DNA of 64,000 nucleotides. It comes from Acanthococcus lagerstroemiae (Eukaryota; Arthropoda; Insecta; Hemiptera; Eriococcidae). The position numbers were made by a program, and so were the translations under genes. This document shows positions 25,696 to 55,965 of this stretch, piece by piece; within the stretch, counting starts at the first letter, position 1; each line of letters starts with the position of its first letter. The notes under the pieces are model-generated. The model was given only the letters and a program-made list of their open reading frames with translations. It did no database searches and had not been told where the DNA came from. The stretch covers positions 10,416,001-10,480,000 of the forward strand of contig CM063114.1 in NCBI GenBank assembly GCA_031841125.1. Direction: 5' to 3'.

Positions 25696-26280
25696 GGGTC
25701 GTTTCCCCAGCAGCGCCCATTTCAGATTTGAAGTTCAAAATTTCAGGATCGTTAGTACTACGTTGGTGCTGGTTAGTGCCGTAAAAATTTTCGTTAGTGC
25801 TTCTCCCCTTCCATACTTTTTAAAAAATGAAGTTGGACGCTGCTGGGGAAACGGTGGCACCGCCCATGAGGCCTAGCTCTCCGAAACACTCAGGATCGTT
25901 AGTGCTACGTTAGTGCTGTGAAAATTTTCGTTAGTGCAACCCGCCCACCCCCGCAGTCGACCACATCCACATTGTAGGGCACAAAATATAAGGGACCGAA
26001 GACCCCATTCCAGAATCGAAGCTCAAAATGTCAGGATCATTAGTGCTACGTTAGTGCTGGTTAGTGCAGTACAAATTTTCGTTAGTGCTGCCCCACTTCC
26101 ATACTTCTTGAAAAATAAATTTGGGCGCTGCTGGGGAAACGACGGCACCGCACATGAGGCATAGCCCCCCGAAACACTCGGAATCGTCAGTGCTACATTA
26201 GTGCTGGTTAGTGCTGTGCAAATTTTCGTTAGTACAACCCACCAACCCCCGCCGTCGTTCACATCCACAAATACTTCCAA
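25696..26280. repeat. Left iteron arm
   Basis: Read on the minus strand, three successive modules contain GCACTAACGAAAATTT, CCAGCACTAAC and GTAGCACTAACGAT. They are separated by spacers with CCCCAGCAGCG and TTTGAACTTCGA/TTTTGAGCTTCGA. Confidence 0.75.
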
Positions 26281-27300
26281 AGTATTCGGGAATTTTTCTC
26301 GAAATATTTTTTATTGGAAAATATTAGAGATTTTCTCAAAAGATTTCCAATAAAATTCTTCTGAAATTTTCGGATATTTCTTTCCGTTTCTGGTGAAATT
26401 ATCAGATAATTCTTTGGAAATCATCCGATTTTTTTCCACGAATAATTTTTTGTTTATAACAGCGCCACACTGGGCTCAGTAATGTTGCGTTTTATTAACA
26501 CGCAACGAACGGGCTTTTCCTAATGCTGAGTTTTAAACGGCATAATCCTGCGAAAATTATCGGAATTTTTTCCTAAAAATTTCTGACAAAATTCCTTAAA
26601 AATCATCGGAGATGTTTATCGAAAATATCGATGAAGTTACTCGGAGATCATCGAATATTTTTCCTGAAAATTGTTGATAAAATTCTCCAAAACCATTGTA
26701 GTTTTCCCTCAAATATTTCCATGATCGGGAAATCTTCTCGAAAAATTTCTTGAATGAAATTTTTTTTAGAAAACATTGGAAATGTTCGGATGAGATTCTT
26801 TCGATATAATTGGAATTTTTTCCTAAAAATTCCTCATGAAATTCTTTAAAGATCATCGAAGATTATTCCTGAAGATTTTCGATGAATCTCTTCGGAATAC
26901 ATTTTTTTCCTGGAGGTTAGTTGTCTCGAATATTACCGGAATTTGTTTCCGAAGATTTCCAGTGAAATTCCTTAAAAATCCTCCGAGATTTTCGCAAAAA
27001 ATCTTCGATGAAAGTCTTCGGAGAACATTTTTTCTGAACATTGTTGATACTTCAAAAATCATCTGAGTTTTCCCCTAATGAAATTTTTCAAAAATTATCG
27101 GAATATTTCCCCCAAGAATTTTGAAGAAATTCTCGGGGAAACACTGCGAATTTTTTCCAGAGATGTCCGATAAGATTATCCGGTTCAGCATTAAACTCCT
27201 TAATAATAAAATAATAAAAAAAAAAAAAATGAAAAATGAAAAACCTATGGATCTTTTTTCGAATCTTGCCGATGAAGTTCCTTCAAAATCATCGGAAAAC
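26281..27300. repeat. AT-rich degenerate minisatellite core
   Basis: Loose repeats of GAAATTCTTCGGAAATCATCGGA-like units of roughly 30-45 bp alternate on both strands. An unrelated piece at 26459-26540 interrupts them. The short ORFs are composition effects. Confidence 0.6.
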
Positions 27301-27304
27301 TTTA

Positions 27305-28240
27305 GAATGTTTCGGAGAGCTAGGCCTCATGGGCGGTGCCACCGTTTCCCCAGCAGCGCCCACATTTATTTTTCAAAATGTGTGGAAGTGGGGCAGCACT
27401 AACGAAAATTTGTACGGTTCTAGCCAGCACTAACGTGGCACTAATGATCCTGACATTTTGAGCTTCGATTCTGGAATGAGGTATTCAGTCCTTTATATTT
27501 TGTCCCCTACAATGTGGAATTGAATGACTGCGGGGGATGGCGGGTTGCACTATCGAAAATTTGCACAGCACTAATGTAGCACTAATAATCCTGACATTTT
27601 GAGATTCGATTTTGGAATGGGGTCTTCGGTCCCTTATATTTTGTCCCCTAATACAATGTGAATGTGGTCGACTGCCGGGGTTGGCGGGTTGCACTAACGA
27701 AAATTTGCACAGCACTAACCAGCACTAATGTAGCACTGACGATTCCGAGTGTTTCGGTGAGCAAGGCCTCGTGGGCGGTGCCACCGTTTCTCCAGCAGCG
27801 CTCAATTTTTTTTTTTTCAAGTATGGAAGGAGGCAGCACTAACGAAAATTTGAACGGCAATAGCCAGCACTAACGTAGCACTAATGATCCTGACATTTTG
27901 AGCTTCGATTCTGGAATGGGGTCCTCGATCCCTTATATTTTGTCCCCTACAATGTGGATGTGGTCGACTGCGGGGGTGGGCGGGTTGCACTAACGAAAAT
28001 TTGCACACCACTAACCAGCACTAACGTAGCACTAACGATCCTGAGTGTTTCGGAGAGCTAGGCCTCATGGGCGGTGCCACCGTTTCCCCAGCAGCGCCCA
28101 AATTCATTTTTTAAAAAGTATGGAAGGGGGGCAGCACTAACGAAAATTTGTACGGCACTAACCAGCACTAACGTAGCACTAACGATCCTGAAATTTTGAA
28201 CTTCGAATCTGAAATGGGCGCTGCTGGGGAAACGGACCCC
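27305..28240. repeat. Right iteron arm
   Basis: About four modules lie in forward orientation with GCACTAACGAAAATTTG, CCAGCACTAACG and TAGCACTAACGATCC, plus the CACCGTTTCCCCAGCAGCG spacer. The arm has more modules than the left one, so the arms differ in copy number. Confidence 0.75.
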
Positions 28241-28340
28241 AATTAGGACGACGGATTTGAATTCGCCTCGAAAAACTGATTAATCAGCACCAGCGCCGAT
28301 GACGAAGCCGTCCAAAAAATTTTTTACTCCCAAAAAGGCA
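28241..28340. repeat. Dispersed repeat (family of 1-800), right part
   Basis: It continues the copy interrupted at 25695: GGACGACGGATTTGAATTCG follows on from GCTCAATTTTGA. With the target duplication removed, the two parts join to match the intact phrase near 25430-25480. Confidence 0.75.
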
Positions 28341-28438
28341 TGATTGGCTAGGCAATAAAGGAATTCGGCAAAATTATCAGTGATTCTTGTGAATCTTGTC
28401 CTCAAGCGAGATACCAGGTAGAGGTTTGGTTAGAGTAC

Positions 28439-28746
28439 CAGTGTTGTGCCGTAAAATTTTGGTTTTTACTTTACATGTTTTCTACGCGTAAAATATCAGG
28501 TAAAATACACATGTGTAGAAAACTGAAGTTTTTTACGTTGTCTGTAAAATACTCGTATGTAAAAAACTGTAATACACTTCTTGAAAGTCCAGCAGATGGC
28601 AGCATGCTACTTTATATTTTTGATAATGTTTTCTACGTTTTTTAAGTGTTTTACATATTTTACATCAATTACCTTTTTTACATGGTTTTTAATACTGACA
28701 CGTAAAAAACTGCTCTTTATGAGTGGAGACACAAGACACAACACTG
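28439..28746. mobile_element. hAT-like MITE, TTTTACA-rich family, copy 2
   Basis: Ends are CAGTGTTGTGCC and ACACAACACTG. The TSD TAGAGTAC is perfect (28431-28438 and 28747-28754). The interior matches the copy at 24571-24889. Confidence 0.9.
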
Positions 28747-28754
28747 TAGAGTAC

Positions 28755-29194
28755 CCGCTAAACGGTAACAGGCTAGTACAGCCATTGGGATTTAAACATG
28801 CACTAGAGTGCGCTGCAAAATTACCTGCGCGGGTGTTAGCAGGTGAAAATGAGTGAGTGATCACGTGTGTACTTTCAAATAGAAACACTGCTATCTTCAG
28901 TAGGACAAAAAACCGAGTAAAGATCATTCTGCCAGTAGAACTGATTATAATTTAATTTTTTGGTGATGATACAGTCGAATTTAGGAAAGATTTTCTTTGA
29001 AAGTGAATTTCTAATCGACTTAATGATAGTTGAAGTTTGCTACACGCTTACCGGTAAATCATACGTGATCACTCCCACATATCGCAGGGCTGCCAACACT
29101 TGAAACTCCAAGTTTAAATCCCAATGAGATGAGCGTTAGCTAGAGCGTAAGCACGGGAGCTCCAAGTTCTGAGAAATTCTCATAACCAGCGCTC
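28755..29194. other. Unassigned, with a GAGTGATCACGT inverted pair
   Basis: GAGTGATCACGTGTG near 28855 is mirrored by TACGTGATCACTC near 29064-29077. This may be a small element of about 220 bp, but no TSD is seen. Similar GAGTGATCA/TGATCACTCA ends occur near 34811 and 35070. Confidence 0.35.
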
Positions 29195-29454
29195 AAATGG
29201 ACACTGTTCAACGAAAGGGACGAACCAACCAACATTAGTAAACAAAATGATTTATTAGTACCGTTGGAAAGAGCGTAAAAATTAGAATTTTTCAAAACAG
29301 GGGCCCCGATTTAGAAATGTGTAATCACGTTGAAAAAAGCTTATCAGTAAACGCCATGTCATATAGTTTCTACATGGCTCTTAAACTTCGAATCACGTGT
29401 TCTCAAAAAACAGATTTTGCTGGTTGGTTCCCTTACACTGAATAGCGTCCATTT
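29195..29454. mobile_element. MITE with about 35-bp imperfect TIRs (TGGACRCTRTTCA)
   Basis: The left end AAATGGACACTGTTCAACG and the minus-strand right end AAATGGACGCTATTCAGTG are inverted copies that continue into ...GGGAACCAACCA. Partial copies lie at about 22405-22440 and 29748-29815. No convincing TSD was found. Confidence 0.65.
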
Positions 29455-29609
29455 AGCAAGGCGCAAAGGCGTCAGTGACGTCACTGGAGTGCCAATCACA
29501 CAGACCGCTTATGGAAATACAGCTTTCTTCAATCCTTACCTTACTCATAATTGATGTCCTTAACATGTTATTCTGTTAATTTTACAACAATATGTACAAG
29601 CTACAAAGC

Positions 29610-30677
29610 TAGTGATGAAAAATGCTCGAGCATTTCCGTTTTGCGAGCATATGCTCAAATTGCTTGAGTATATGCTCAGCATGAGAACATGCTCAAAATA
29701 GCGAAGCATTTTCTATTGGATGAGCATATGCTCAACATTTTCAGAATTGGACGCTATTCAGCAAAAGGGAACCAACTAGCAAAATTCGCTTTTTGAGAAC
29801 ATGCGATTCAAACTGTGGGCACATTATTGCAGGGCAGGAAGAAAGCAAAAAGCTAAAAAGCTGAAGCTAGACTCTTTTTAGCTTCAAAAGTTGAAAGCTA
29901 AAAGCCAGAGGTATAGTTTTAAAAAATATATAAGTTGAAGCTCAGCTTTATTTTTATAGCTTCTTTTGGCTTTTTCCACTATCCATTTTTTGTAATTATT
30001 TCGTGATACTCATTGAGTATGACTTCTTCTAACGTTCTAACTTCTACCCTTCTAACATGTCATAATATTCTGACGTGGACACTAAAACCCTTTTCTTGTG
30101 TTACTTCTTTTCTGGCCCCATATTCCTGTCATATCACTTTTTCAATTTTCGGTCCACCCTTGCATGTTCACCTTGTTCAGCTTCACTCGTTAGCGTTCAG
30201 ATGTGTTCGATGTGTACGCGTCTTCAATTGAAACCAATTTATATGCCGAAGTTCGAGAAAGCTTGTCATTTTATTGTATAGTGTCTTCTCCTATAAGTAA
30301 AACTGTTGAGAAGCTGAAAGAAAGCCAAAAGCTGAAGGCCAAAGCTATGCGAAAAAAGTTAAGAAGTCAAAAGCTAAGCTTTATACTTTTAATCTAGAGA
30401 AAATAAGCTGAAAGCTAAGCTTTATGTTTCAGCTTTCCTGCTCTGCATTATTGTCAAGAAATTTAAAACCTTATCTTGAAAGCCAAAAAATTCCAAAACG
30501 GTAAAAAAAGTGAAAAAATGCTCGCAAAACTGCGCTCATTATTTCAGTGCTTTGCTAAGCATTTGCTCATGGAGCATATGCTCAAATTATGAAACATTTA
30601 CTCAACGAGCATATGCTGAGAATATTCTTAAAATGCTCAGCATTTTTAAAATTAGCATATTCTCATTTCCATCATTA
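29610..30677. mobile_element. GAGCAT hAT-like element split by later insertions
   Basis: The left end TAGTGATGAAAAATGCTC starts at 29610, and the right end ...CTCATTTCCATCATTA finishes at 30677. The family's interior is present on both sides (29610-29747 and 30505-30677), but 29748-30504 is foreign and includes the complete 29830-30445 element. Flanking 8-mers are ambiguous because GTACAAGC and TACAAAGC both precede the left end, while GTACAAGC follows the right end. Confidence 0.65.
29830..30445. mobile_element. hAT-like element of the AAGC family, complete, 616 bp
   Basis: Ends are CAGGGCAGGAAGAAAGC and GCTTTCCTGCTCTG. The TSD CATTATTG is perfect (29822-29829 and 30446-30453). The interior contains several short AT-rich open frames without a transposase domain. 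It is the best-preserved copy of the AAAGC-rich repeats in the window and defines their ends. Confidence 0.85.
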
Positions 30678-30685
30678 GTACAAGC

Positions 30686-31202
30686 TTGGGCTGTCAAAAA
30701 TATGCCTAAAACAGGTGAATTATGCGCATATTTTATGCTTTTTTGCCGCTAAATATGCCAAAAATATTCTCTAAAAAGTCGAAATATTCCAAAATATGCT
30801 GCTCTAATATGGGTATTATTTTGGAGGGGGAAATGAGTAGATTACAACAGCAACATTGTTTCAGGGAGTTTTCCCTACTGGCGCGACAAACAACGAAACA
30901 ACAGTGAACCAAACAATGTTTCCACAACCATTAACTTTCATTTTCTCCAACGTTTACGGTAAAGTGGGGGAAAAAAAAGAATTAATAAATACGACATATT
31001 GTGGTCGTGGTTGTTCAATGTGTCCAAAAATGCAAACAATTTTAAAATACCAAATACGCAATTGTGTCGAAATATGCAAAAATATGCAATTCTGAGTAGG
31101 GCTTATTTTATTCAGAATTTTATGTTTCGCAAAGATATCTTGAAAATGCTCAACTTGCTTCACAGAGGAAAAATATGCCAAAGCATACTTTTGATAGCCC
31201 TA
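30686..31202. mobile_element. hAT-like element rich in AAATATGC
   Basis: TTGGGCTGTCAAAAATATGCC at the left is mirrored at the right (minus strand: TAGGGCTATCAAAAGTATGC). The flanks share GTACAA (30678-30683 and 31204-31209), although the alignment is off by one base, so the TSD is imperfect. It directly abuts the GAGCAT element. Confidence 0.65.
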
Positions 31203-31457
31203 TGTACAACATTCAATTGGCTACTGTCAGAAAAAAAGAGCCCTCTACAGCAAAAATTCAGTTTTCCAATTTCTGTTTTATGAAGTGAATTTCGGCGCAA
31301 GTGAGACAAGACGTTTGTTTGCGGGTTACCTATCCGAATAGGCCAACCTTCTTCAGTTATATGAACCTTGCAGGTTATCGGAAAAGTAAGGATCAAAATG
31401 GCGGATGAGCATACCCACACGACGTTTACAGAGCCTAACTATGTTTATAGGTACCTA
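31203..31457. other. Spacer with a lone MITE end
   Basis: At 31392-31432 the string AAAATGGCGGATGAGCATACCC...GTTTACAGAGCC matches the right end of the MITE at 38694-38855. No left end is present. Confidence 0.5.
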
Positions 31458-31598
31458 AAGTCTGGTCCAGTTAAGAAACATAACCAGCTACCCGCAATAC
31501 ACATCGATATATGGGTGTTTTGAAGTTGGAGGGAAGGACGAGTTCGAGAACACGTTATCAGCGCCGTGAAAAAATTATGTTTCTACTGGACCAGACTT
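31458..31598. mobile_element. Tc1/mariner-like MITE, 141 bp, TA target site
   Basis: AAGTCTGGTCCAGTTAAGAA at the left is inverted at the right (TTCTACTGGACCAGACTT) with a 2-bp indel. TA flanks both ends directly, as expected for Tc1/mariner-type insertion. Confidence 0.75.
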
Positions 31599-31920
31599 TA
31601 CACATTACACAAATGGCTTCCTGTGGACTGCCAAAATGAAAAACAATTAGGTCGGGAGTCCGTAGTGCCACTGAAGCCTGCTTTGCAGTACATAATAATA
31701 AACGAGATTTACTTGAGGATGCCTCGCTACAGCAAGTGTATTTCAAACAGCTTCGGTGGAAGACTTCTGCCTCCTGTTTCGATTTTCTCCAGCGGATAGA
31801 CTTACTTCGAGAAAGAAACGCGAATCCTGGTATAGTGACTTGTCCTGCAAACATCGAAACAACCATTTTAGTCACTATAGAACTGAAACACAGCTCGTAT
31901 TTCTCACAGCCGCGTTGGTT
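31599..31920. other. Nothing recognised
   Basis: Short open frames exist on both strands but show no domain, splice signal or repeat. Confidence 0.35.
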
Positions 31921-32400
31921 CATTTAAATACGAGTATATTGTTTACAGATCATAGTTCAGTGTTAGTTCAGTTTCATGTTAAAATAGGACCTCTTTACAC
32001 GTTCTCCGTTGACTGCTGCCATCTGTCGGTAAGTCGGTCTACTGTTATGAATATTTCCTCTAGGTTAGGAATGCAACTTGGAAGTTGGAATTTAGAAAGA
32101 TGAAAATAAATGATTCTCATTCTGGCGTATTTTTGTTTTATCGCATAGACGTTGGTACAGTGTCTAAAAATATAAGCTTCAAAGCTTCAACATTTCAGAT
32201 TTGGTTTTGTTTTATCAATACCATAAAAAGTTAGCGCAACAACACCTTTTAAAAATGAAGCTAGCGAAAAGCTTATTTTACTGACTTTAACTTATCAGCT
32301 AGTCAATGAATGCAGTAAAATTCCCATAGACAACAACATAGAACATAGCAAACACCCTCTTACTACGTCGCCATCTGCGAGGTAGCTTGTTACTCTGAAC
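31921..32400. repeat. Dispersed repeat, copy A (uninterrupted)
   Basis: It matches 34256-34760 and 35592-35632 closely, including GACTGCTGCCATCTGTCGG, TTCTCATTCTGGCGTAT, AGCTTCAAAGCTTCAACATT and GCGCAACAACACCTTTTAA. Copy A lacks the insertions found in copy B and so serves as their empty site. The class of element is unknown. Confidence 0.8.
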
Positions 32401-33370
32401 CCCTGAAGTAATAGTGTTAGCGTCACTTACCTTAAATCGGTGAGTTCGTTGGTCGGCTGTTAGTTCGGCTTTCAGCAATTTGATGGCATTTTTATTCACT
32501 GCTTCTGTGGGTCCTATAACTCGAACTTCTCATTCAGCTCTTCGGTCTTCATCGCACTTTGAACCTGTAACAGAGAGTTTGCAGAGGTTATAAATTGATC
32601 TAGTTGACAAGTATGTAGAAAAATACGATCCTCAATTATCTTCTTCTATTTTTTACCCTATCTTCCATTTTCTGTTCTATATTCTTCTCTATCTATATTC
32701 ATACTCTAAAATGAAGTCACATTTTTTGTCACTGTATCATATTCTTCTCTATCCATCTGTTCTATTCCCCTATATACATAGTACATAACATAGAATGAAA
32801 TCACATTTCTTTCTCACATCATCACGGCTAAACATAATGAGTGTGGAAAATAATAAATGTGGCTATAGATCCGAGAAGCATTCGTCAAAGATCTCTGTCT
32901 CTATCTGTAGGTTTGGAAGTTTGTAAGTTCGGGTTTGTTTACATTGGCACCTGATGTCTGGGCAGTCCTGAACTAGAAGAGGAAGAAATCTGTGAGGCGT
33001 GATGTCATGCTGAAATAAAGAAGCCTGGGTTAAAATACAGCACCTGAGAATAATACACCATATTTGGTCCTTACATGCCCCGATGATTTGAAATTCACTA
33101 TACGCGGAACGTTCCGCGTACTGAACTGTGAATCATCGAGCACTAAAGCGACGGAAAATGGCGGAGGTCAATACTGGGGTGTTTTCGGGTACTCTAGGTA
33201 AAGGAAACATGTAGACACTTCTGCGCATTCATATGTATTTATTGGTGTTATGTTCAGAGATTCGAGGCCGAGCTGGCTCGATTAATTCATGCTCGAACAC
33301 TTGAGCATGGAAAGTGCAAATTCTAAGGGTTTACGGAAAATGTTTATATGTACTGCAAGAAAAAAAGAAG
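32401..33370. other. Nothing recognised
   Basis: TCTATATTCTTCTCTATC-type phrases repeat loosely around 32640-32780. There is a partially palindromic motif GCGGAACGTTCCGCGT at 33105-33120. No gene could be supported. Confidence 0.35.
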
Positions 33371-33376
33371 AAAAAA

Positions 33377-33411
33377 TAATAATAATAATAATAATAATAA
33401 TAATTATAAAA

Positions 33412-33444
<33 letters not shown>
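33377..33444. repeat. (AAT)n microsatellite
   Basis: About 20 AAT/ATA repeats with one interruption (ATTATAAAA). The isoleucine/asparagine runs in overlapping frames are an artefact of the repeat. Confidence 0.95.
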
Positions 33445-33445
<1 letters not shown>

Positions 33446-33929
33446 GAGGTAATAATAGCAGACAAATAGATCACGTTTTAAGCTTTGAGAGAAATAAAAA
33501 CTGCGCCCTTTGAGTGGAGCTACTTCTGACACCTGATTATTGGAATCAAACAATTGGTCCGGAGCATATTATATATTTTATGCATATTGGTGCCCCTTAG
33601 CATAATTATGGTAATATTTTAATCTATAATTGCAACTCCGGATGAAAAATCAGATTTTCAGATATAAAGAAAAGAAACACTGCGCACTCGTTTTCGGTGA
33701 ACAATCGTCCAATTTACGACGTCTGTCTAACCAGAAAAATGATTTTTTTTTCCACCACATGTGCGGAATGTGCCTCATTTTAAACCTCTTTTCAGCACAA
33801 TAAGTGAAACTTTTGAAGCGATAATAGAGTGTACATACCTATATCTAGAAAGTATGTCAAAATTATCCAGTTTTGCTTAGAGAAAAATGAAGAAATTAAA
33901 CATCTGCATATAAACCTTCCTCCTATAGA
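33445..33929. other. Nothing recognised
   Basis: AT-rich sequence without a supportable gene or repeat. Confidence 0.35.
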
Positions 33930-34200
33930 AATGCACCAATGCTCATCTGCTATCATCCATCCTCACCTTTTCCAATAACTAACAAACGCATTAAGGCCCA
34001 CCTGTCTTTCTGATCTTACATTTTCCAATAACAAGCAAACACATCAATACTCATCCATCATTTTCATCCTTACTTTTGCAAATCACAATTTAACAAGCAA
34101 CCGCATCAATACTCATCCGCCATTTTGATACTTACTTTTTTCAAAAACTGGCAAAAAATGCATCAGTGCTTGTCTGCCATATTGATCCTTACTTTTTAGG
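33930..34200. repeat. About 60-bp satellite, first block
   Basis: Four to five units of the type GCTCATCYGCCATTTTGAT...CTTACTTTTTCCAATAAC...CAAACGCATCAAT. The array resumes at 35633 after the dispersed repeat copy B. Confidence 0.75.
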
Positions 34201-34510
34201 GTATTTGCCGTGCACAGCGCTACAAGCACCCTATTGGAATCGAATTTTCATCATTTCTTTAAATACGAGTGAATTGTTTACAGATAATAGTTCAGTTTCA
34301 TGTTCGTCAACTGCTGCCATCTATCGGTAAGTCGGTCTACTATTATGAATATTTCCTCTCGGTTACGATTACGAATGCAACTTGGAAAGATGAAAATAAA
34401 AGATTCTCATTCTGGCGTATATGTATATTTGTTTTATTGCATAGACGTTGATACTGTATCTGAATTTTAGCTTCAAAGCTTCAACATTTCAGATTTGGGT
34501 TTGTTTTATC

Positions 34511-34611
34511 GGCACTGATGCGATGCCCGAAAGGGTAGTTTCCAGTGCTGGGGGTGCGGTGTCTCAGGGGCCACTTTGGCATGCGTGCATCGCCATACGT
34601 TCCACTACACC
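34511..34611 (+). mobile_element. R1-clade LINE 3'-end fragment, about 100 bp
   Basis: This stretch (from ACTGATGCGATGCCCGAAAG to CATCGCCATACGTTCCACTA) is almost identical to the 3' terminus of the R1-type element at 54959-55613, read on its own strand. It is an extremely 5'-truncated copy. Copy A of the host repeat lacks it, giving a natural empty site (GTTTTATC|AATACC). A clean 14-bp TSD is not visible here. Confidence 0.85.
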
Positions 34612-35151
34612 ATCAATAGTCAATACCAGTGTATAGGAAGTTAGCGCAACAACACCTTTTAAGAATGAAGCTAGCAAAAAGTTCATTTTATTGACTTTAA
34701 CTTATCAGCTAGTCATTGAATGCAGTAAAGTTCCCATACAAGCAGACAACAACATTGCGATGTGGAACAGAATATAGGAGCGCTAATGTGCGCTTCCTAA
34801 TGAAAGGTTGAGTGATCACAAACGGAAATAACATTGCCGTAAACGGAAAATACGGGTTTTTATAAAAATCATTATAAATTGAGAAATGACGGACATGCTT
34901 CAAATTTGAACTGTAGCTGTAGGGAGCTACATATTCGAACTTGCGATTAAAAATTTAATATGTCAGGTAGCAAAATTAATAGAAGTGCGGTGTAGTACAA
35001 AATGAGAGGTACGTTATCAGTTGCCGGCCCGACCCGCGCGCACCCCGCGTGACCTATTTATTTTTTCTCCATGATCACTCAGTGAGGGTTCACAAAACAT
35101 CCGCTAGGTGTCAGCCACTTTGATTCCGAGTCTCAATAGATCATAGCAAAC

Positions 35152-35583: not shown

Positions 35584-35632
35584 TAGCAAGCACCGTCTTA
35601 CTACCTCGCCATCTGCCAGGTATAGCTTGTTC

Positions 35633-36790: not shown

Positions 36791-36801
36791 GTGGCGCAAT
36801 C

Positions 36802-37033: not shown

Positions 37034-37041
37034 TTGCAATC

Positions 37042-41190: not shown

Positions 41191-41690
41191 GGATGAAATC
41201 AGTCTACTCTGAAACGATATGGAAATCTTGGGCAGTCTTAATCAAGTCTGATGAAATTTCAACGAATACTGAGCAAGTTTGGAAGAGCTTTATAAAGGCT
41301 TACAGAATACAGAGTTACGATTTGAGAGTTTAAAAAGAGTAGGTATTAAAAATCTTGAACAAGTCTAGAAGCGTCTACACAGATAGTAACTCACGTAAAA
41401 CAGTTTTGAAAAAACCTAATTAAGTTTGAAAGACTCTCCTGGGAGTTTTTAAGAATTTTGAAGAGTCTTATACGAGTCTGAAAGATTCCTAGAGTTCGAA
41501 TAAATTCTAGGGAAGTCTTCAGAAATTTCGAAATGTTTTCAAATAAGCACAGAGGATTCTTAAATTCTCAATCAACGAATGAGTTTCAAAGAGACGTACA
41601 CAAGCGTATAAAGAGCCTTACAGAGCTTCAAGATGTTCCGAATGAATGTAGAGTGACCTCTAGAGTCTTAAACCTGGAAATGACGTAACC
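41191..41690. repeat. Degenerate AGTCTT/AAGTCTG repeat
   Basis: Loose repeats containing AAGTCTGA, GAGTCTTA and TTTGAAGAGTC recur every few tens of bases. Related tracts lie at about 44030-44300, 44765-44880 and 49650-49910. Confidence 0.45.
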
Positions 41691-43816: not shown

Positions 43817-43905
43817 ATCTGTAACCAATGAAGGAGTTCTGTTATAAATCGCCACTGGTGCCTTAATAATTCGCCCCAATCAGAATGCTCCGTTGTAGAT
43901 TGCTA

Positions 43906-44303: not shown

Positions 44304-44763
44304 CTTCTTCTCTAGACGCTATATCCAATGTCGGACAATGACGCTCGCCGTTTCTGACACGTGACTCTCCGGGGCAGGTTAGCCGGGGTAATTCGTCATT
44401 GCCTGCTTCATGGTTTTATAGACTTTTCTTTTTCTATTCTGAAGAGTGTGCAGCGACCGGTCACTTACTAGTCACGGGTTTCACGGCGTTGAGTTAGCTG
44501 CCCGTGACATGCACACGCACAGTACCAATCTTTCTGATCTGGTGGTAACACGCACTACAACTATAATGCCTTGTATCTGCGAACTGGCGGGGGTTACAGG
44601 ATACGCTATGTTCTCCCCTCGATTGATACTGCAGTCGCTGTTTTCGTTATAGGATGTTATTGGTGGTATTCGAATATCACTAACTTTCAGGCACTGGTGG
44701 GACTCGAACCTGAGAGGTAAGGATAGCGAAGCGAACACGTTGCCACTTGGCTATACAGTGACT
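44304..44763 (-). mobile_element. tRNA-derived SINE, copy 1
   Basis: Read on the minus strand, the head (44763-44690) has an A-box-like TAGCCAAGTGG and a consensus B box GGTTCGAGTCC, so the internal RNA polymerase III promoter is recognisable. The body carries AGTGATATTCGAAT, CAGTATCAATCGAGG, GCGTGTTACCACCAGATCAG and GCTGCACACTCTTCAG, shared with the copies at 48485 and 50193. The tail reads CGACATTGGATATAGCGTCT. It is non-coding and would depend on a LINE for mobilisation. Confidence 0.85.
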
Positions 44764-45030
44764 TCGAGAGTCTTAAGGGAGTCTGAAATTGGGTAGGAGA
44801 GTCTACCCGAGTTCCAAAAGTATCTGAATGAGTTTTGACAAGTTTCAATGAACCCTAAAAGAACTGCTGACTGAGTGCTGTAGTAGGGCCTAAATGTATT
44901 TCAAAAAACGGATTAGTCTTATTGTAGCTTTATGTGACTTCGCTCGGGAAAATTATAGACCTCAGTTCTAATTCGAAGGCACGTTTAGACCTAGAAATAT
45001 TCGGAACAGTTTACATATAACAGCTATATG
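44764..45030. other. Nothing recognised
   Basis: Degenerate AGTCT-type sequence with no supportable feature. Confidence 0.35.
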
Positions 45031-45609: not shown

Positions 45610-45819
45610 GCTATATGTTTCTTTTTATCTAACAAATTATTAATGTATACCACAAATTCTGGCGACTCCGGGACTGATGATACCAGTGCTATGACTTTTT
45701 CAACGCGACAACGTGATCAAATTTGATACAGAATTCGAGTTACTGTATCAACATCGACTTCTGAATCAAATTCTGCGCCAAATTGGATGCAGAATTCTGT
45801 ACAAAGACTTTTGTATCGG

Positions 45820-47030: not shown

Positions 47031-47169
47031 AGGTCGACAAAGGAGTCGACTTTTGTATCGACTGTGTCTTATGGGAAGTCTGCAATAGTATATCAAGCTG
47101 CTGACCCTCACCGTTATGAATTTTCATCATACCGAACTTCATCCCTCAAACTGTGCGACGGCAAGAAAG

Positions 47170-47349
47170 CAGGAACGTAGCGAAGAGATTTCTTGGAGGG
47201 GGGGGGCAAAATTTGTTAAATTCCTAACTCACAACTCAAAATTCCAAGAATCAAATTTTTTCTGTGTTGAATTTTTCCAACTTTTGGTCCGTCTACTAAA
47301 ATTTCCCAACTCTGGTGGAGGTTTGGGGGCAAGCTGCCCCCGTGCTCTG
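47170..47349. mobile_element. Probable hAT-like MITE, 180 bp
   Basis: The left end CAGGAACGTAGCGAAG and G run face a right end GGGGGCAAGCTGCCCCCGTGCTCTG. Flanks CAAGAAAG and TAAGGAAG match at 6 of 8. The TIR is weak, but the G-run/C-run layout resembles the MITEs at 43558 and 50526. Confidence 0.5.
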
Positions 47350-47625
47350 TAAGGAAGCCTTTGAAAACGCGGAAATTATGCTTTTAGACAGCGGTGCGTT
47401 CGAATGAATCATTCCACGAGTCATTACGAGTGAGAATAAATATTATGAAGATGTTATCATTCCAAGTTAACCGCGTGAAACGTTCACCTAGTGCGGCTAT
47501 TTAACGCGAACTTGATTATTACAATCGTGTCTGGATACCTGTAACCAGTGTCGTAACGAAAAAAGCGAAGCTAGCCTCTCTGGTTAATTTTTTCTTTCCT
47601 CCTATATCGACGTGATGAATTTCAG

Positions 47626-47851
47626 CTTACGTAGGCATGGCACCAGTTGTATCGCCGCATTCCAGCATAAAATTCGGCATCCAGTCTACTTGGCCTTGAA
47701 TACGATCATGAACGAAGAACCGGATTCAGAACTCGTGTACAGGGCGGATACCAGATATCAGAATTTCTTCGATTGTAACAGTCTCTCGCAGATGAGGTAC
47801 GGTACAATGTCCCGAGAACATACGAAGTATTTTGATTGCTATGTGAATTAG
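47626..47851 (+). CDS. Candidate last coding exon, unknown protein
   Basis: A pyrimidine-rich tract (TTTTTTCTTTCCTCCTATA) and TTTCAG end at 47625. From there one frame (phase 1) stays open for about 75 codons to a TAG at 47849-47851. The peptide includes KIRHPVYLALNT, EEPDSELVYRADTRY and REHTKYFDCYVN. Its composition looks like real protein, balanced in charge and aromatic residues, unlike the repeat-derived frames around it. The segment is not repeated elsewhere in the window. I recognise no family. No AATAAA lies close downstream, and the upstream exon is not identified, although a splice donor at 40386 is on the same strand. Confidence 0.35.
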
Positions 47852-47859
47852 AAAGCGAA

Positions 47860-48484
47860 TGCAGGCCCGTGGGTCAATGATTGCTTCGAGCAAACCACCC
47901 CACGTGAAGGTATCTATTTGAAATCTTTGCCATAATTAGCAAAAACTCAATTCACGAGGTTTCATATCTTCGGTAAACCTTCAATGTACCGCGGATCCGG
48001 TATTGGTGACAATCAGAAATCGCTCAGATTAATTACATTAACGGATTCAACATAAAAGGAACAGAGGCTCGCAGAGGAGAGAAATGCAGGAAGGTGCCCT
48101 TTTTTGGAAGAAGGGGGACTTGATAATTAACGGCACCCTCAAAACCAACGTCAAGCCAAATCAGTCAATTTTTCAACACGGCATTATAGTTAAATGTGAT
48201 ATGCAGAATTCGATGTGGAAGTTGAGTTGACATCGATTTTTGAATCCAATCATGCATCTACTTTGATATAGAATTCTATCCAAAAGTTGATATCGACATG
48301 GTTATTTGATTTTTGTATCGAATTTTGTATCAAATTTGACTACAAAGTTGTATCGGGAAGTGACGGATTTTGAATGTTGATAAAAGAGTCGATTTTTGCA
48401 TAGACTGTTTTTCAAGGACAGAATTATGAGAGTGATAGTAAGCTTTTTTCTGCTTATAGATATTTTTTGACTACCATTTGGCAA
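47860..48484. other. Unassigned; fragments of the TCGAC repeat
   Basis: The part from 48190 to 48420 resembles the 45.8-47.0 kb repeat (GTTGATATCGACATGG, TTTTGTATCGAATTTTG). The rest is not recognised. Confidence 0.4.
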
Positions 48485-48930
48485 GACGCTGTGTGACCAA
48501 GTGTTGACATGCCCACTTCGCAATCCTTGCGTCTCGGGTTCGAGTCCCACCAGTGCTGAAAAAGATAGTGATATTCGAATACTCCCACTAACAGCCTAGC
48601 GAACACAGCGACTACAACATCAATCGAGGTGGAAACATGGCGCATCCTGTAACCTTCGCCAATTCACACGAACGAGGCATTACAATTGCAGGGCGTGTTA
48701 CCACCAGATCAGAGAGATTGGCACTGTGCATGTACCCGTCGTGGGTAGATTACTCAACATCGTGAAACACGTGGCTAGGAAGTGAACTGCGGCTGCACAC
48801 TCTTAGGCACCAAGAAGGAAAACTCTTAACACAACAAAACCATGAAGAAAGGCAAGCTTCCCCGAATTGTCCAGGAGACCGCGACCACCAATTTCCGGCA
48901 TCGGATATTGCACCTGAAAAAGATGATCGT
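48485..48930 (+). mobile_element. tRNA-derived SINE, copy 2
   Basis: Head: GACGCTGTGTGACCAAGTG...TGCGTCTCGGGTTCGAGTCC, with the consensus B box GGTTCGAGTCC. The body and tail match copies 1 and 3 (AGTGATATTCGAAT, ACAACATCAATCGAGGTGG, TTACCACCAGATCAGAGAG, GGCATCGGATATTGCACCTG). At AACACAACAAAACC it gives the empty site for the MITE that interrupts copy 3. Confidence 0.85.
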
Positions 48931-50000
48931 CCGGCAAACGTGGGTTTGCACCTTTCCTTGTGGTCATAAAGGTCACGCGAGGTCCCTGCTCCCTAGATAG
49001 GACCACAAGACCACCGTGCCCTTTTTTACTATTCATTCGACTGAAGGTCTGTACACATCTAGGATTCTTCAACTCTTTGGAATGACTGTTTGGTACTTAT
49101 TGATCGACATACCATGCATACTCATGCGTTGTTTGCAGAACGCACTATGCGCTTTTTTCTTGCTCGGTAAGACGTGAACCATCCAACAGCCATAGCTTGA
49201 ACCTAGTTTTCGAATACTTCACTATGAATCACGTCCGTAACCAGTTTACACTCAGCGGCGATCTAAAAAACAAGGAATTACCATCGCTGGCGAGTCTGTT
49301 TGTCTTCTACTTTTCTCGGTTAAGCAAATAAAAGCAAAAGTGGCACTCTTTGTGTTAACCGCAGTACACACAAAAGGAAAAATGTATGGCCTCAGCGTAG
49401 GCTTAATTCAGTTGATTCATTCGATTAATTTTCATGTATTAAATAATCTAATCTTTAATCTCTATCTGCTTCCGGTATCCGTTTCTGTTGACTCAATTTT
49501 CACAGTCTAATTATTAAATTCGTCGAATATTGATCGTAAGAACTGGCCAAAATAAGATGGATCCGGAAGAATAGCCTGTGGAAAGTAAGGTTTTCGAAAT
49601 TCGAAAGTAAAAAGCAAGTACAAGTGCAACTTCTTAATTAAATTTAGTGAAATCGATAAAATCTGGAAGAGTTTTCAGAAAGCTTAAGCATGATAGAAGA
49701 ATCGTTTAAATGGACTTCGAACATTCTTAGAACGCCCTAAACAAGCTGAGAAGAGCTTTGAAGAGTCTCAAACAGGTCTTAAGGTGTCTTAAACATTAAA
49801 GAATTGTTAGAAGTCTTGATCAAAAGTCTTGAAACATTTCAGTAAGTCCGAAAGCGTCTACAGATTCTTAAGCGAGGATTGAGGAGTCTTAGCTGGCCTT
49901 AAAAACTGATCCCCTCGTCCCAAAAGAATGAATTGTACGACATTTCGATGATCTTTGATTATTTTCTAAAAACAGTCATCCAGTCGATATTCCCGTGAGT
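48931..50000. other. Unassigned, with degenerate AGTCTTA repeats
   Basis: 49650-49910 belongs to the loose AAGTCTTGA repeat seen at 41.2 kb. The remainder has no ORF or element I can support. Confidence 0.35.
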
Positions 50001-50125
50001 CAGTGGCATAGCCGGGAGGGGGCTCTTTGCAACTTCGTCAAATAGTGGTTTTTAGAATCTCAGTACCCCCTCCTCTGTTGGTCACGACCCAATCTCCCTT
50101 GAACATTAGGCAGGCTATGCCACTG
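50001..50125. mobile_element. hAT-like MITE, 125 bp
   Basis: Ends are CAGTGGCATAGCCGGG and CAGGCTATGCCACTG. Flanks CCGTGAGT and CCATGAGC match at 6 of 8. It is one of the shortest elements in the window. Confidence 0.8.
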
Positions 50126-50192
50126 CCATGAGCTGAGTAATTTCAATAGCGCATATGTGAGAGGGTATTCTTATTTCCACCATTCTAATAAA

Positions 50193-50903
50193 GTCGCTGT
50201 GTGGTCAAGTGGTAACGTGCCCGCTTCGCCAACCTTGCGTCACGGGTTCGAGTCCAACCAAAGCCGGACAGACAGCTAGTGATATTCAACCACCCCCCTA
50301 ACATCCTAGCAAACACAGCGACTACAGTATCAATCGAGGTGGAAACAGTCCGTCCGGTAAACCCCGCCAATTCACTGAAACAAGGCATTATAATCGTAGA
50401 ACGTGTTACCACCAGATCAGAAAGACTGATACTGTGCGTATGCAGGTCATGAACAGCTTATGTGGCTAGCAAGCAAACTGCGGCTGCCCACTCTTCAGCA
50501 CAGAAAAGGAAAACTCTAACGCAACCATGGGCGTAGCCACCGAGGGGCAATGGGGACAATTGCCCCCCTCCCGAATTTTGAAGTGCTCACAAGATTATTT
50601 TCGAATGAAATTTGCAGAAAGTAGGATGTACCTAGAGGCTGAGACGCTAGACAACGAAAATGTGTGACTGGCACCATACTGATAGCAAAGCAGCGACTTG
50701 CAACTGCACATAATTTCTACATTTTTTCCCTCTCCTCCTCCCCATGAAAAAGTTCTAGCTATGCCCAGGAACGCAACAAAACCGCGGGAAAAGCTACGGC
50801 AAACTACCCCAACTAACCCACCTATGACGGTCACGCGTTAGAATCGCGACCGCCGACGTCCAGCATCGGATAAAACGCCTGAAGATGCAAGAAGAGAAGA
50901 TTA
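50193..50903 (+). mobile_element. tRNA-derived SINE, copy 3, interrupted
   Basis: Head: GTCGCTGTGTGGTCAAGTGG (A-box-like TGGTCAAGTGG) and GGGTTCGAGTCC (B box). The body matches the other copies. The MITE at 50526-50769 splits the 3' half, after which the tail resumes (GCGACCGCCGACGTCCAGCA, TCGGATAAAACGCCTG). Confidence 0.85.
50526..50769. mobile_element. hAT-like MITE, 244 bp, nested in SINE copy 3
   Basis: Ends are CATGGGCGTAGCCA and TAGCTATGCCCAGG. The TSD AACGCAAC is perfect (50518-50525 and 50770-50777). SINE copy 2 reads AACACAACAAAACC without interruption, which proves the insertion and its boundaries. Confidence 0.92.
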
Positions 50904-52865
50904 TAACTAGAAAATAGCTCACAGACATTTCATTCAAGACTTTGAGTATTTCTCCTCTATCTACTCGTTCAATAATCACCTCGAAGGCGTCGGAATAATC
51001 CAACAAAATACTTGAGGGAGGGGGAGTAAAAATTATTCAGTTATTATACGTTCTAGATTTCCCCTCTCGAGATGGTCTTCTGAAACCATCATTGCAGGGG
51101 GTGACCCGCGTCTTAAGGACTGATCTTTACAGGCGCAAACAGGAAAGTGGGAAGGGGCTTATTCTTCAGATCTACTGGAAGTCATCTTTCCTGAAAAAAT
51201 TATACAAGCCTAAGTATTTTCAGCATTGATTTGTAACAGTCTCAGTTTAAGACCTCATTCCACCAGCTTATACCTTCAAGAACGCAGATTTCAAGCTGAA
51301 TATTTTTGATTAATCGATTATTTGTGATTAATCAACTCCTGAGATTAATAAATTGATTGCACTTCGTTAATTGGTTATTTTCGATTCATTTGTAGAACTC
51401 ATTTCCAGTCATTGTTTCATAAAAGAAAATATAACTGACGTCAATCTATTTTCACTTCAATTCCCCCCATTCCCCCCTTCTGAACTGAGCACATTAAATT
51501 GTAGTAATTCAAACTGCGGCACCGTGTCGCGCACAGGAAACTCGCAGATAAAGTGCAGCACAAATATGTACATATTCATACGTTTATTAAACAGGTTTCT
51601 TTCTCACGTTTCAGTTTGGGTTTCATTTATAATGTATTTGTACATATCAGACGCGGGGGGGGGGGGGTCTCTTATGGTATTCGTGTTGGCGCGGGATTAC
51701 GCTAAACCTTTGCCCAACAGGAGCCTAGATAAGTAAGGGAAAACTATTTATCCAAAAAAGATAAATACTTCACTCAAGTGAAATGGCTGCAGTGGATAAG
51801 AAGAGACGAAAAACCAGCTGATTTTCAGATTTACTTTGCTGGTAGTTTCCTATGCAGAACTTGGCACTTCCGTCCTAAGCGCCAGCAGTCGCTCCTGGAG
51901 TGGGACGGCTCACGTGAGGCTGACACGTGGCAATATAATGCTGATAATTCTTTCGTTCGCATAATTTTTAGTTCTTTGGAGGGGCTTCCAAAGGATTTGG
52001 GGGCGAAGCCCTCAAAGCCCTTCCTCCCTAATTTAAGCCTATAGTTTCTGTATCTCCTCTCTGTTGCCTCATGTCAATGTACATGAAAAATGAACGGAAC
52101 ATAAACTGTAGTAATTAGCATCCGGAAAAAATGGCTGATTAAAAACTTCAACTTCTCCTTCCTGCTTTCGATTTTGCTGACCTTCGATAGGGTTCCATCC
52201 CTAATAGTACTTAATCACCTATTTGAATTTTGTCACAACCCATAATACAGAAAAGTGCATGCACTCATCTCCCTCGCACACAGTTGGGCCACGAGTTATT
52301 GTAAGTAATTTTATACCCTGGAAAAGTTCTTGTATTGGTATTAAGAGTATGGGCTCGAAAATGATTTCTACTGTTTTTCATTCTCTGGAATGTTTGTTAG
52401 AACAACCCTGGTGATCCTCCGGAACTAAATGTCTGGAGCTTTGGAGATTGAAGTCTGAACACGAGACAAAAAATAACATCTTGCATCTTTCTACATTCAC
52501 GTAACAGTTCCAGCACGCACACTGATACACTTGCTATATTTGATTTGCGATAATTCGGTAACAGCGGAAAGCACATTTTAGGTCAAGTTTGAACCGGTCC
52601 TACAAATTTCCTTTACTTTTGGCAATGGGACAAGTAAGCTAGCATGCCGACTATGTATACTCGTTACAGGACGTAGATAAAAGTGGATTACCAAGGTTAA
52701 GGTGCACGCGGCACATCGCATAGCCAGGCGAACATAGTGAAGGCACTAAGCCACCTTGGTTCTTATGTTACCGCCGATCACCCAAATGAAGGGCAAAATG
52801 GTGAACCAGTGTACATCTGCATAAAGGCATCCATTAAATTGTAATTTTCACGTCAAATACGCAGT
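50904..52865. other. Nothing firmly recognised
   Basis: A long G run lies near 51655. Plus-strand frames at 51371-51736 and 51778-52044 lack domains. A GGAGGGGCTTCCAAAGG...CCTTCCTCCC patch at 51975-52030 resembles the G-rich parts of hAT-like MITEs, but no ends were found. Confidence 0.35.
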
Positions 52866-52871
52866 ACTGAC

Positions 52872-53027
52872 CTGCGTTACAAGCGGATTTAATCTCAGCA
52901 TACGAGCTGACTAAACCAAAACTCTCTGCCTGTATTGGCCTTGATGGCGACGGAATCGTGATTCCAAGTTTTGAAATGTCATGAGATACATCAGTCGGCA
53001 CACCGGCTTGATCTTTTATCGATGAAA
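52872..53027 (-). CDS. Candidate internal coding exon, 156 bp, unknown protein
   Basis: On the minus strand a good acceptor (TCTACCCACATTTATTTCGGCAG, its last G at 53028) precedes exactly 52 codons. These end at a consensus donor, GCAG|GTCAGT (52872/52871). The open frame reads SSIKDQAGVPTDVSH, then SKLGITIPSPSRPI and SYAEIKSACNAG. The length is a multiple of three, so the exon is symmetrical and could be skipped without a frameshift. Composition is protein-like and the sequence is unique in the window. I recognise no family. Neighbouring exons were not found. Confidence 0.4.
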
Positions 53028-53689
53028 CTGCCGAAATAAATGTGGGTAGAATTGGTAACATCACTGCCCTCGAGCTGATCACGAGCGTAGGAGATTTTCA
53101 CCGAGGCAGTGGTGTATCAAGAACTTTCCAGAAGGGGGGGAGGGAGGCAGGAGCTCCAAATTGTTCTGATTACGAACGGTCAGAGGTGAATCCACGATTC
53201 TTCGACTTAAGCCGATTTTCAAACGTCGAAGGGTGTTGGTATACTTCCATATCAAGGAGGGGCAATTTTTTAAGTCGTTATGAGGGAAACTACGTGTGCT
53301 ATACCTTGGCGTGGCGAGGAGGCTTAAAGAAGAACTAAAGGCACGTGAGAGAAGGAAAACTCAGACCGATAAACCCTGATAGAAGCAAGGGGAAAGTACA
53401 TCAGTATGCTTCCCAGACGTCTCCAATTATGATGGCAACTCACTGGGTATAAATTAATAATTCCGGACGTAAGAAGTCTTCCATTCGGATGTCCGGGCAG
53501 AGACTACCTAGTGAGAAACTATATCAGAATCGAGACCAGGGACATGGAATGTAAGGACACTGAATGAGATAAGCAAATTAAAAAATTGAAGAAAGAGATG
53601 TAAACATTAGAATTAGATTGTGAGAGATGGCCAGAAGAAAATTATTTTCGGACGGGGGCGTATAGAATAATTAATACAGCAGCAAAAAC
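53028..53689. other. Unassigned; possible MITE left end at 53109
   Basis: CAGTGGTGTATCAAGAAC followed by a G run (about 53109-53150) resembles the hAT-like MITE ends, but no inverted right end was found. The plus-strand frame at 53042-53338 has no domain. Confidence 0.3.
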
Positions 53690-54245
53690 GGGGCAAGCCG
53701 GGCTGTAGGTGAGTTGCGGCCCGAGTACTCTATCAGTAAAAACGGGACAGGTGAATTCCGGGCCGAACTATTTTTGATGACGAGTGAATTCCGGCCCAAT
53801 GATATCAGTATCGATGTTGGTGAGTTGCGGTCTATCATTTAAATATCCTATGTGCAGTGCAGCAGATATACATATGTGGATGGGACCTTCAAGAACCTCC
53901 ATGTCGCCAGTTCCCCACCTATCGAAATTTGAAAATTTGACACATGGATTCGTTTGTGCTACGTTTGTGCTGGTTTGTGTTGAAAATTTCATCGTTTGTG
54001 CTGCTATCCTTAGAGAGATATTAAAAAAAAAAACACTGTCAAAGTCAGTGGAGAACTGGCGACATGCTCTTCCCCACCTAACAGATATCAGGCATTTGAA
54101 TATGCCATTCGTTTGTGCTACGTTTGTGCTGATTTGTGCTGCCATCTTTTTCGTTTGTGCTGCAACCCCCTCGCCCCTACACTTAAAACAAGTTTTTATA
54201 CACATATATGTATAAAAATTTGAAAATAGTCAAACCATTGAAGCC

Positions 54246-54944
54246 CGGTGCCAATCGTCTTGAAACCTTATACCTATATTAGAAGGAAGGGGGTGCAGCA
54301 CAAACGAAAAAAATGTCAGCACAATCCAGCACAAACGTAGCACAAACGATTGATACCATTCTTAGCCATCTCGAGTGATTTTCAAATTTTTCTCATACAT
54401 AGGCTATGGATTAAAACTGAAACACTAGATGGAGGAGGGGGTGTAGCACAAACAAAAATAAGGCCAGCACAAACCAGCACAAACGTAGCACAAACGTTTC
54501 GTACCATTTTTAGCCATTTCGAGTGATTTTCAAATTTCCCTTACTGATAGGCTAAACTTGAAACCTTATACCTATATTAGAAGGGAGGGGGTGCAGCACA
54601 AACGAAAAAAATGCCAGCACAATCCAGCACAAACGTAGCACAACCGATTGATACCATTCTTAGCCATCTCGAGTGATTTTCAAATTTTTCTCATTCATAG
54701 GCTATGGATTAAGACTGAAACACTAGATGGGGGAGGGGGTGTAGCACAAACAAAAATAAGGCCAGCATAAACCAGCACAAACGATTCGTACCATTTCTAG
54801 CCATGTCGAGTGATTTTCAAATTTCCCTTACTGATAGGCTAAACTGGAAACCTTATACCTATATTAGAAGGGAGGGGGTGCAGCACAAACGAAAAAAATG
54901 CCAGCACAATCCAGCACAACCGTAGCACAAACGATTGGCACCGT
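54246..54944. repeat. Iteron array, higher-order period about 290-300 bp
   Basis: Two alternating modules each carry GCACAAACGAAAAAAATG or GCACAAACAAAAATAAGG, then CAGCACAANCCAGCACAAAC and GTAGCACAAACGAT, followed by an AGCCATNTCGAGTGATTTTC spacer. The module pair begins near 54283, 54581 and 54868. This array enlarges the nested element between its left arm and the R1 insertion. Confidence 0.8.
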
Positions 54945-54958
54945 GTTTCAATGGTTTT

Positions 54959-55613
54959 GGTGTTGTGGGACGTATGGCGATGCACGCATGCCAAAGTGGC
55001 CCCTGAGACACCGCACCCCCGGCACCGGAAACTACCCTTTCGGGCATCGCATCAGTACCGAGGGGAACGCTTTGGGGCCGGGCCCGAGCCCCCATTTCTC
55101 CTGGTCGGAACGGTGCGCGCGTCCTGCCAGGGCCATCACGGGGTTCCCTACTGACCGAGGTCCGCGCTCCCAGAGCACTCGCCTGGGAATTTCAGGTTCC
55201 CCGCAGCCGGACGCGCTGCCTCTTCCTCTTCACTCACTCATCGTATGAGACTCTTCCGATTGAAGCTCCAGCCCTTGCACTGCGGGCGAGCTCTGCTCCA
55301 GCCCTGGTGCTACGGGCGAGCTTCGCTGGATGGTATCCGCCGCCGCAGTAGCAGCAGCAACATCCGCTTCTCCTCCTTGCGTCCTTTGTCTCGACCACTC
55401 AGCCTCCATCTTCCGTCGCATGATGGCCGAAACGAAACCCGACACCCGGTTCCAACCGCTTCGGCTCCTCAACAGCTCCAGGACCAAGGTGTCCGGCGCA
55501 AGACGGTCGATCACGCCGTCTCCGGGATCGATCGTGACCGCCCCGCGCCTCATCTCCTCCCAGGCGTCGCACTCGAACAGCGTATGCCACGGCGTGTCCT
55601 CCTCTCCGCTTGC
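54959..55613 (-). mobile_element. R1-clade non-LTR retrotransposon, 5'-truncated 3' end
   Basis: This GC-rich block is flanked by a perfect 14-bp duplication, GTTTCAATGGTTTT (54945-54958 and 55614-55627). R1 elements are known for 14-bp TSDs. Read on the minus strand, the block begins inside ORF2 and ends in a 3' UTR whose last 100 bp also occur at 34511-34611. There is no poly-A tail; the 3' end reads CATACGTCCCACAACACC. It lies outside the 28S rRNA gene, so this lineage does not use the classical R1 site here. Confidence 0.9.
55230..55611 (-). pseudogene. C-terminal fragment of an R1-type ORF2 (reverse transcriptase) protein
   Basis: ORF2 of R1-type elements carries endonuclease and reverse transcriptase. 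Only the extreme C-terminus is left. The minus-strand frame includes WHTLFECDAWEEMRR, which fits the conserved HTLFEC...W segment after the reverse transcriptase domain in R1-clade proteins. It continues to SGWNRVSGFVSAIMRRK, typical of the final helix, and then to a low-complexity tail (EADVAAATAAADT; repeated SSPVAPGLEQ / SSPAVQGLE). The stop is at 55230-55232. The 5' truncation at 55613 removes all catalytic domains. Confidence 0.85.
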
Positions 55614-55614
55614 G

Positions 55615-55965
55615 TTTCAATGGTTTTGACAATTTTCAAATTTTTATACATATATGTGTATAAAAACTTGTTTTAAGTGTAGGGGCGAGGGGGTTTCAGC
55701 ACAAACGAAAAAAATGGCAGCACAAACTAGCACAAACGTAGCACAAACGAATGGCATATTCAAATGCCTGATATCTGTTAGGTGGGGAAGAGCATGTCGC
55801 CAGTTCCCCACTGACCTTGAAAGTGTTTTTTTTTAAAAATATCTCTCTAACGATAGCAGCATAAACGATGAAAATTTCAGCACAAACCAGTACAAACGTA
55901 GCACAAACGAATCCATGTGTCAAATTTTCAAATTTCGATAGGTGGGGAACTGGCGACATGGAGGT
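55615..55965. repeat. Right inverted arm of the nested element
   Basis: It is inverted and nearly identical to 53895-54245, including GGGGAACTGGCGACATGG, the GCACAAACGAA modules, TGCCTGATATCTGTTAGGTG and the TATACATATATGTGTATAAA palindromic stretch. Confidence 0.85.

Follow-up and report, generated by a model that had tools for sequence, protein, structure and literature searches.

Two foldback transposon families in Acanthococcus lagerstroemiae share a four-box arm module and differ at one coordinated letter

A 64,000-nucleotide stretch of the genome of the hemipteran insect Acanthococcus lagerstroemiae (GCA_031841125.1, contig CM063114.1, positions 10,416,001 to 10,480,000 of the forward strand; hereafter the window) contains two diverged elements, E1 and E2, whose inverted arms are filled with short boxes in one common arrangement. 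With no significant similarity outside the modules, the two share the spacing of their boxes and differ in a single letter of nearly every one. Both are non-autonomous foldback elements with long inverted arms built of repeats. We lean somewhat towards placing them in two families of non-autonomous foldback transposons that are related to each other, are probably Mutator-like and have docking-array ends, in which T and A at the fifth box position would represent two recognition specificities. The parts of the two elements are as follows, in window coordinates.

25695-28239, no strand: E1, T-type foldback element of 2545 bp, recognised by its inverted arms, target site duplication (TSD) and unoccupied sites
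25686-25694: left TSD of E1, CAATTTTGA; right copy CAATTAGGA at 28240-28248, 7/9 identical
25695-26269: E1 left arm, four modules with boxes on the minus strand
26186-26235, 26039-26088, 25898-25937 (one box short) and 25751-25800, minus strand: E1 left-arm modules
27305-28239: E1 right arm, six modules with boxes on the plus strand
27396-27445, 27547-27586 (one box short), 27691-27740, 27836-27885, 27987-28036 and 28134-28183, plus strand: E1 right-arm modules
25700-25853: E1 outermost unit, comprising a 20-bp tip motif (25700-25719), one four-box module and the inverted tip motif (25834-25853)
53895-55965, no strand: E2, A-type foldback element of 2071 bp including a later insertion
53886-53894: left TSD of E2, CCTTCAAGA; right copy at 55966-55974, 9/9 identical
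53895-54258: E2 left arm, two modules (53952-54001 and 54111-54160, minus strand), with the inverted tip motif at 54047-54066
54298-54932, plus strand: E2 inner array, five modules with a two-module period of 298 bp
54298-54347, 54446-54495, 54596-54645, 54744-54782 (without slot 4) and 54883-54932, plus strand: E2 inner-array modules
55629-55965, plus strand: E2 right arm, two modules (55699-55748 and 55859-55908)
55793-55812 (plus strand) and 55941-55960 (minus strand): copies of the tip motif in the E2 right arm

The extents proposed by the initial annotation needed adjustment, as E1 is better placed at the coordinates above and the middle of E2 holds a later insertion of 654 bp. The 9-bp TSDs that it had proposed are perfect in E2, and 12 distinct perfect ones were found in other copies; E1 itself has 7/9, but its insertion is backed by two unoccupied paralogous sites within the window. 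The sequence into which E1 inserted is a repeat rich in GAATTCGAATTCG (window 25329-25690, 28240-28344 and 304-775), and further copies of this repeat lie in the window, two of which cross the insertion site without E1. The arms of both elements are composed of modules and are 96% complementary over 219 nt in the outer part of E1, and 96% and 93% complementary over 210 and 147 nt in E2. Without its insertion E2 is about 1.4 kb long and nearly all arm, with two modules on the left and seven on the right.

The window contains 50 occurrences of the box GCACNAAC, where 5.26 would be expected (maximum among 100 shuffles, 11); 23 of them lie in E1 (22 with T, one with C), 25 in E2 (all with A) and two elsewhere. 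A module consists in both elements of four such boxes at offsets 0/21/31/42 bp, and the shared layout first suggested by eye of the letters holds when all modules are measured. No slot is missing from eight of the ten E1 modules, although box 2 is worn in two of these eight; the remaining two of the ten are shorter by exactly 10 bp, or one box. In E2, eight of the nine modules are complete and one lacks slot 4. Scanning for any repeated 8-mer at these offsets picked out, among the 60 of 64 plus-strand and 34 of 34 minus-strand positions listed, the two elements, low-complexity stretches and a single site standing alone at 41430. A CA linker separates boxes 2 and 3 in 8/8 E1 and 8/9 E2 modules, and GTA stands ahead of box 4 in 9/10 and 8/8, respectively. 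The module had initially been described as three motifs; it has four boxes, the CA and GTA linkers hold, and the GAAAA and GAT flanks hold in E2 only in part.

This arrangement extends to the ends of the elements. The distance from tip to outermost box is, on both sides, 56 bp in E1 and 57 bp in E2, and a 20-bp motif starting 5 bp inside each tip recurs in inverted form right after the first module (25834-25853 in E1, 54047-54066 in E2). The sequence of this motif differs between the elements. The two-module period is 296 bp in the E1 right arm and 298 bp in the E2 inner array. The order of tip, module and inverted tip is thus common to E1 and E2, although tip and linkers differ in their letters, and with the modules masked the best match between the two elements (E 0.11) is not significant. 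Outside the host, the pattern of boxes 3 and 4 gave no matches in IMG/VR and none in GTDB contigs; a looser three-box pattern matched no viral contig and 13 GTDB contigs, which we rejected as coincidence (one similar Mesorhizobium-type site, mixed T/A/C, a single match each).

Position 5 of the box is T in 37/38 E1 boxes and A in 35/35 E2 boxes, setting the spelling GCACTAAC against GCACAAAC. Within the boxes, the consensus modules of E1 and E2 disagree at position 5 of every one of the four slots and agree at the remaining 28 positions, which bears out the motif-wide T/A replacement originally claimed; the chance of a difference confined to position 5 is 1 in 35960 if box positions are independent, an assumption that may not hold. 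Boxes are better preserved than linkers, independent of their surroundings. Among E1 module pairs with both flanks less than 60% identical (14/45), boxes are 0.888 identical, against 0.887 in the other pairs; the corresponding E2 pairs (8/36) show 0.915 against 0.937. The flanks of these divergent pairs average 0.51 (E1) and 0.45 (E2), where random sequence gives 0.52.

We searched the 658-Mb assembly (438 contigs) with the E1 arm and obtained at least 149 matches, with 40 of 289 candidates scored; members of the T family are thus scattered through the genome of the host. From this match list 35 loci were fetched, chosen non-randomly with a T-type query, and in their 310 modules the 812 exact boxes carry T 792 times, G 17, C twice and A once, as a genome-wide recurrence of the T version would have it. 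In eleven T-type elements with TSDs matching at 8-9/9 (among them L049 and L050, which are one insertion event), exactly 56 bp separate tip and outermost module at 20/22 ends, the other two distances being 202 and 45 bp. The eleven elements measure 0.9 to 4.4 kb, the fullest with 24 modules; one further locus has 25. Successive modules are 147 or 151 bp apart in 49/89 steps. At five loci (L049, L050, L064, L065 and L066) a T-type element occupies the identical place in another repeat beginning CAGGCCCGTGCGCAGGATTG, which we take to be a hAT-like tip; the T element there is one insertion carried along.

The TSDs record past mobility. They are perfect at 9 bp in 15/35 loci, at 12 distinct target sites, with six more loci at 8/9, six at 7 or less and eight without a recognisable tip pair. 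At lengths of 7, 8, 9, 10, 11 and 12 bp, perfect matches number 16, 16, 15, 3, 1 and 0. Pairing flanks from different loci as a control gave 9/9 in 3/351 pairs, the number that the three pairs of same-strand copies with one common TSD (L049, L064, L065) would give. A length of 9 bp lies within the 8-11 bp of Mutator-like elements (MULEs), and the E1 and E2 families are probably Mutator-like, judged by TSD length alone. On TSD length we rejected the hAT superfamily, which has 8-bp TSDs (16/35 loci are perfect at 8 bp and still 15/35 at 9), and the P superfamily, with TSDs of 7-8 bp. The P-superfamily transposon Galileo has a TSD of 7 bp, differing from the 9 bp here.

No transposase was recognised in E1, in E2 or in the 35 T-type loci, in agreement with the initial annotation. 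The interior of E1 has no stop-to-stop open frame of at least 120 amino acids, and the longest E2 frames lie within or cross its 654-bp insertion or run over the arms. A tblastn search of the 35 loci with seven MULE relatives gave no match at E up to 0.01. Frames of at least 100 amino acids number 39, mostly inside the elements of 23/35 loci, and many are, by eye, readings of arm repeats; Pfam, run on 10 of these 39 inner frames, recognised no transposase and only one domain of unknown function below cut-off, in a screen that could miss genes with large introns or strong decay.

The A type has a second representative, which came to light by chance, as a repeat inserted into it carries one T element.

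L064 1301-5719 (G000:C5:20050500-20056500): E3, older A-type foldback element

Its arms are about 67% complementary and have the slots 0/21/31/42 of E1 and E2. Position 5 is A in 24/28 boxes of seven modules, and its modules have the slot-2 spelling GCACAATC in common with E2.

On the reading that we favour, the boxes would be protein-binding sites, and the protein would be a MULE-type transposase. The first module presents four near-identical 8-bp boxes 56-57 bp inside the tip. Their offsets lie near full turns of the helix, which could allow four subunits to bind along the same side of the DNA (the closeness to multiples of 10.5 is suggestive only), and further modules follow at a pitch of roughly 145-151 bp. 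The transposase, or a DNA-binding partner, would read the boxes cooperatively, the array summing weak 8-bp contacts into recognition of the end. A docking array for a protein that has to recognise both ends would be expected to show a fixed tip distance, spacing near whole turns and boxes better preserved than their linkers. The module geometry would have been inherited from a common ancestor, and in one lineage the fifth letter would have switched in all four slots together, most likely when the protein moving that family altered its base preference. Coordinated selection by a DNA-binding protein fits the letter split better than homogenisation does. Quite possible, though we would not count on it, is the further claim that a lineage switched its end-recognition base at all four sites, giving two orthogonal systems, T and A, in one genome, with spacing conserved and sequence changeable. 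E1 and E2 form a natural matched pair: their spacing is equal, nearly every site differs by a single letter, and no significant similarity remains outside the modules. Comparing the two tells the features that must stay (geometry, tip distance) apart from the changeable one (a single base), and one binding domain together with two short DNAs would suffice to test how a transposase that has to recognise many sites changes its specificity.

Several observations weigh against this account. The A type is known from E2 plus one degenerate element, E3. A single search list supplied all 35 T-type loci, a T-type query favours T in the count of 792/812, and five of the loci count as one insertion. GAAAA stands behind box 1 in 10/10 E1 modules but in only 5/9 of E2, and GAT behind box 4 in 9/10 E1 modules but in only 3/8 E2 modules possessing box 4; the spacing is therefore more fully common to E1 and E2 than the outer flanking letters. 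Three modules have cleanly lost one box (10 or 11 bp), so boxes of one module can recombine. Modules multiply as units, so that a single module may have founded each array, and only four substitutions, not dozens, may underlie the coordinated change. A rival explanation, which we consider unlikely but well worth weighing, holds that recombination produced the letter split as a side effect: one box mutated, its neighbours were converted and the module was amplified while the protein kept the same specificity. Arrays do grow and shrink by whole modules (four against six per side in E1, two against seven in E2, up to 25 at one locus), and boxes are now and then lost cleanly. Conversion, however, would erase slot-specific variants, and these persist: G stands at position 5 in 15/211 exact slot-3 boxes and in 2/601 exact boxes elsewhere (35 loci; copies, not independent events), and slot 2 is spelled GCACAATC in three E2 modules and in 3/10 listed E3 rows, a listing restricted to rows in which position 5 reads A two or more times, whereas the E3 letter count comes from a separate unfiltered set. 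Position 5 is moreover conserved like the other box positions (0.959 against 0.806-0.975). Because variants within a module tend to keep their slot, conversion between boxes is disfavoured, and because the G variant tends to stay in slot 3, we prefer four selected changes to one change spread by conversion. Both the survival of boxes beyond that of their linkers and the confinement of the G variant to one slot speak for selection and against blind homogenisation. Of the concerted evolution first invoked for E1 and E2, the coordinated change stands and the box-to-box homogenisation is disfavoured.

The boxes might instead be sites for a host DNA-binding or chromatin protein, which the elements would exploit for expression, for phasing nucleosomes or for heterochromatin. 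Nucleosomes would go well with a module pitch near 147-151 bp (147 and 151 bp together make up 49/89 steps, and the dimer period is 296 bp in E1 and 298 bp in E2), and no transposase was recognised in the 35 loci. We nonetheless judge this improbable: the outermost module lies 56 bp from the tip at 20/22 ends, as recognition of the ends predicts, and one host protein leaves the two letters unexplained. It is more improbable still, to the point of being hard to entertain, that E1 and E2 are unrelated and their layouts agree through chance or convergence. The absence of significant similarity between them outside the modules would fit such an origin, but the two correspond in their four boxes, three spacings, CA and GTA linkers, distance to the tip and inverted inner tip, and the A-type E3 repeats the spacing.

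The claim that no such group has been described proved too strong. Tm1 of root-knot nematodes and Tetris of Drosophila virilis are reported to be foldback-type Mutator elements with repeat-filled arms (PMC3169594, PMC4079207). They resemble E1 and E2 in their tandem-repeat arms, in TSDs of 8-10 bp (mostly 9) and in having many or all copies without transposase; Tm1, however, is reported to have a redundant motif of about 14 bp and Tetris TIR-220 repeats, where E1 and E2 have fixed four-box modules and a coordinated letter change (PMC3169594, PMC4079207). Galileo likewise has foldback-like arms with repeated sites, and the THAP domain of its transposase is reported to bind those sites, with one sister subfamily bound weakly and another not at all (PMC3688188). 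Galileo has its first site some 70 bp inward and its further ones at about 561 and 701 bp, against 56-57 bp for the first box of E1 and E2; the same report gives no significant match to the site in the K and N subfamilies or in the D. mojavensis or D. ananassae elements, and calls a transposase-binding role of the Foldback and Phantom tandem repeats untested as of 2013 (PMC3688188). Galileo serves by analogy as a precedent for reading the ends of E1 and E2 as docking arrays. Rehavkus, a group of MULE relatives, is described as having 9-bp TSDs, as E2 does, hosts that include arthropods and a minisatellite before the 3' terminal inverted repeat, and the inner array of E2 likewise stands on one side only (PMC6446971). 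Rehavkus has a PHD-finger transposase, whereas no PHD-finger or other transposase was recognised in E1, E2 or the 35 loci. MULEs are reported across arthropods (PMC13359780). In the literature covered, with most subscription papers and Repbase outside it, we found no report of foldback arms with this four-box spacing or coordinated letter. Repeat-filled arms and 9-bp TSDs are known from foldback-type Mutator elements, and what appears to be new is the conserved four-box spacing together with the coordinated letter.

E2 was itself invaded and had inserted in a decayed MULE, as the following features record.

54960-55613, minus strand: fragment of 654 bp inserted into E2, with a 15-bp duplication GTTTCAATGGTTTTG at 54945-54959 and 55614-55628
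56240-56734, plus strand: MULE transposase fragment of the element hosting E2, matching PF10551 under the curated cut-off
53709-53833, plus strand: left-end boxes GTGARTTSCGGSCC of the decayed MULE hosting E2; mirror boxes at 56782-56858 on the minus strand

Part of the 654-bp fragment is repeated at window 34509-34612, and the fragment bears a resemblance to the 3' end of a long interspersed nuclear element. Pfam, run on 55233-55616, the sole E2 frame tried, gave no match. Capture by E2 of this protein-like inner stretch was rejected because the stretch carries its own 15-bp duplication. The nearest named relatives of the MULE fragment are in Parthenolecanium corni (50%) and Uroleucon formosanum (43%). 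We also rejected the host MULE as an obvious autonomous partner of E2, because its end boxes are different. These boxes have two coordinated spellings of their own, GTGAGTTGCGG and GTGAATTCCGG, with GTGAGTTGCGG outermost at both ends, and may represent a code of this kind in a further family.

Elsewhere in the window, a long low-complexity block, G-rich and pyrimidine-rich, occupies 14089-16400, and the long open frames on both its strands look spurious. An inverted repeat at 44420-44764 and 48483-48826, 78% complementary over 230 nt with its copies 3.9 kb apart, is possibly a further transposon.

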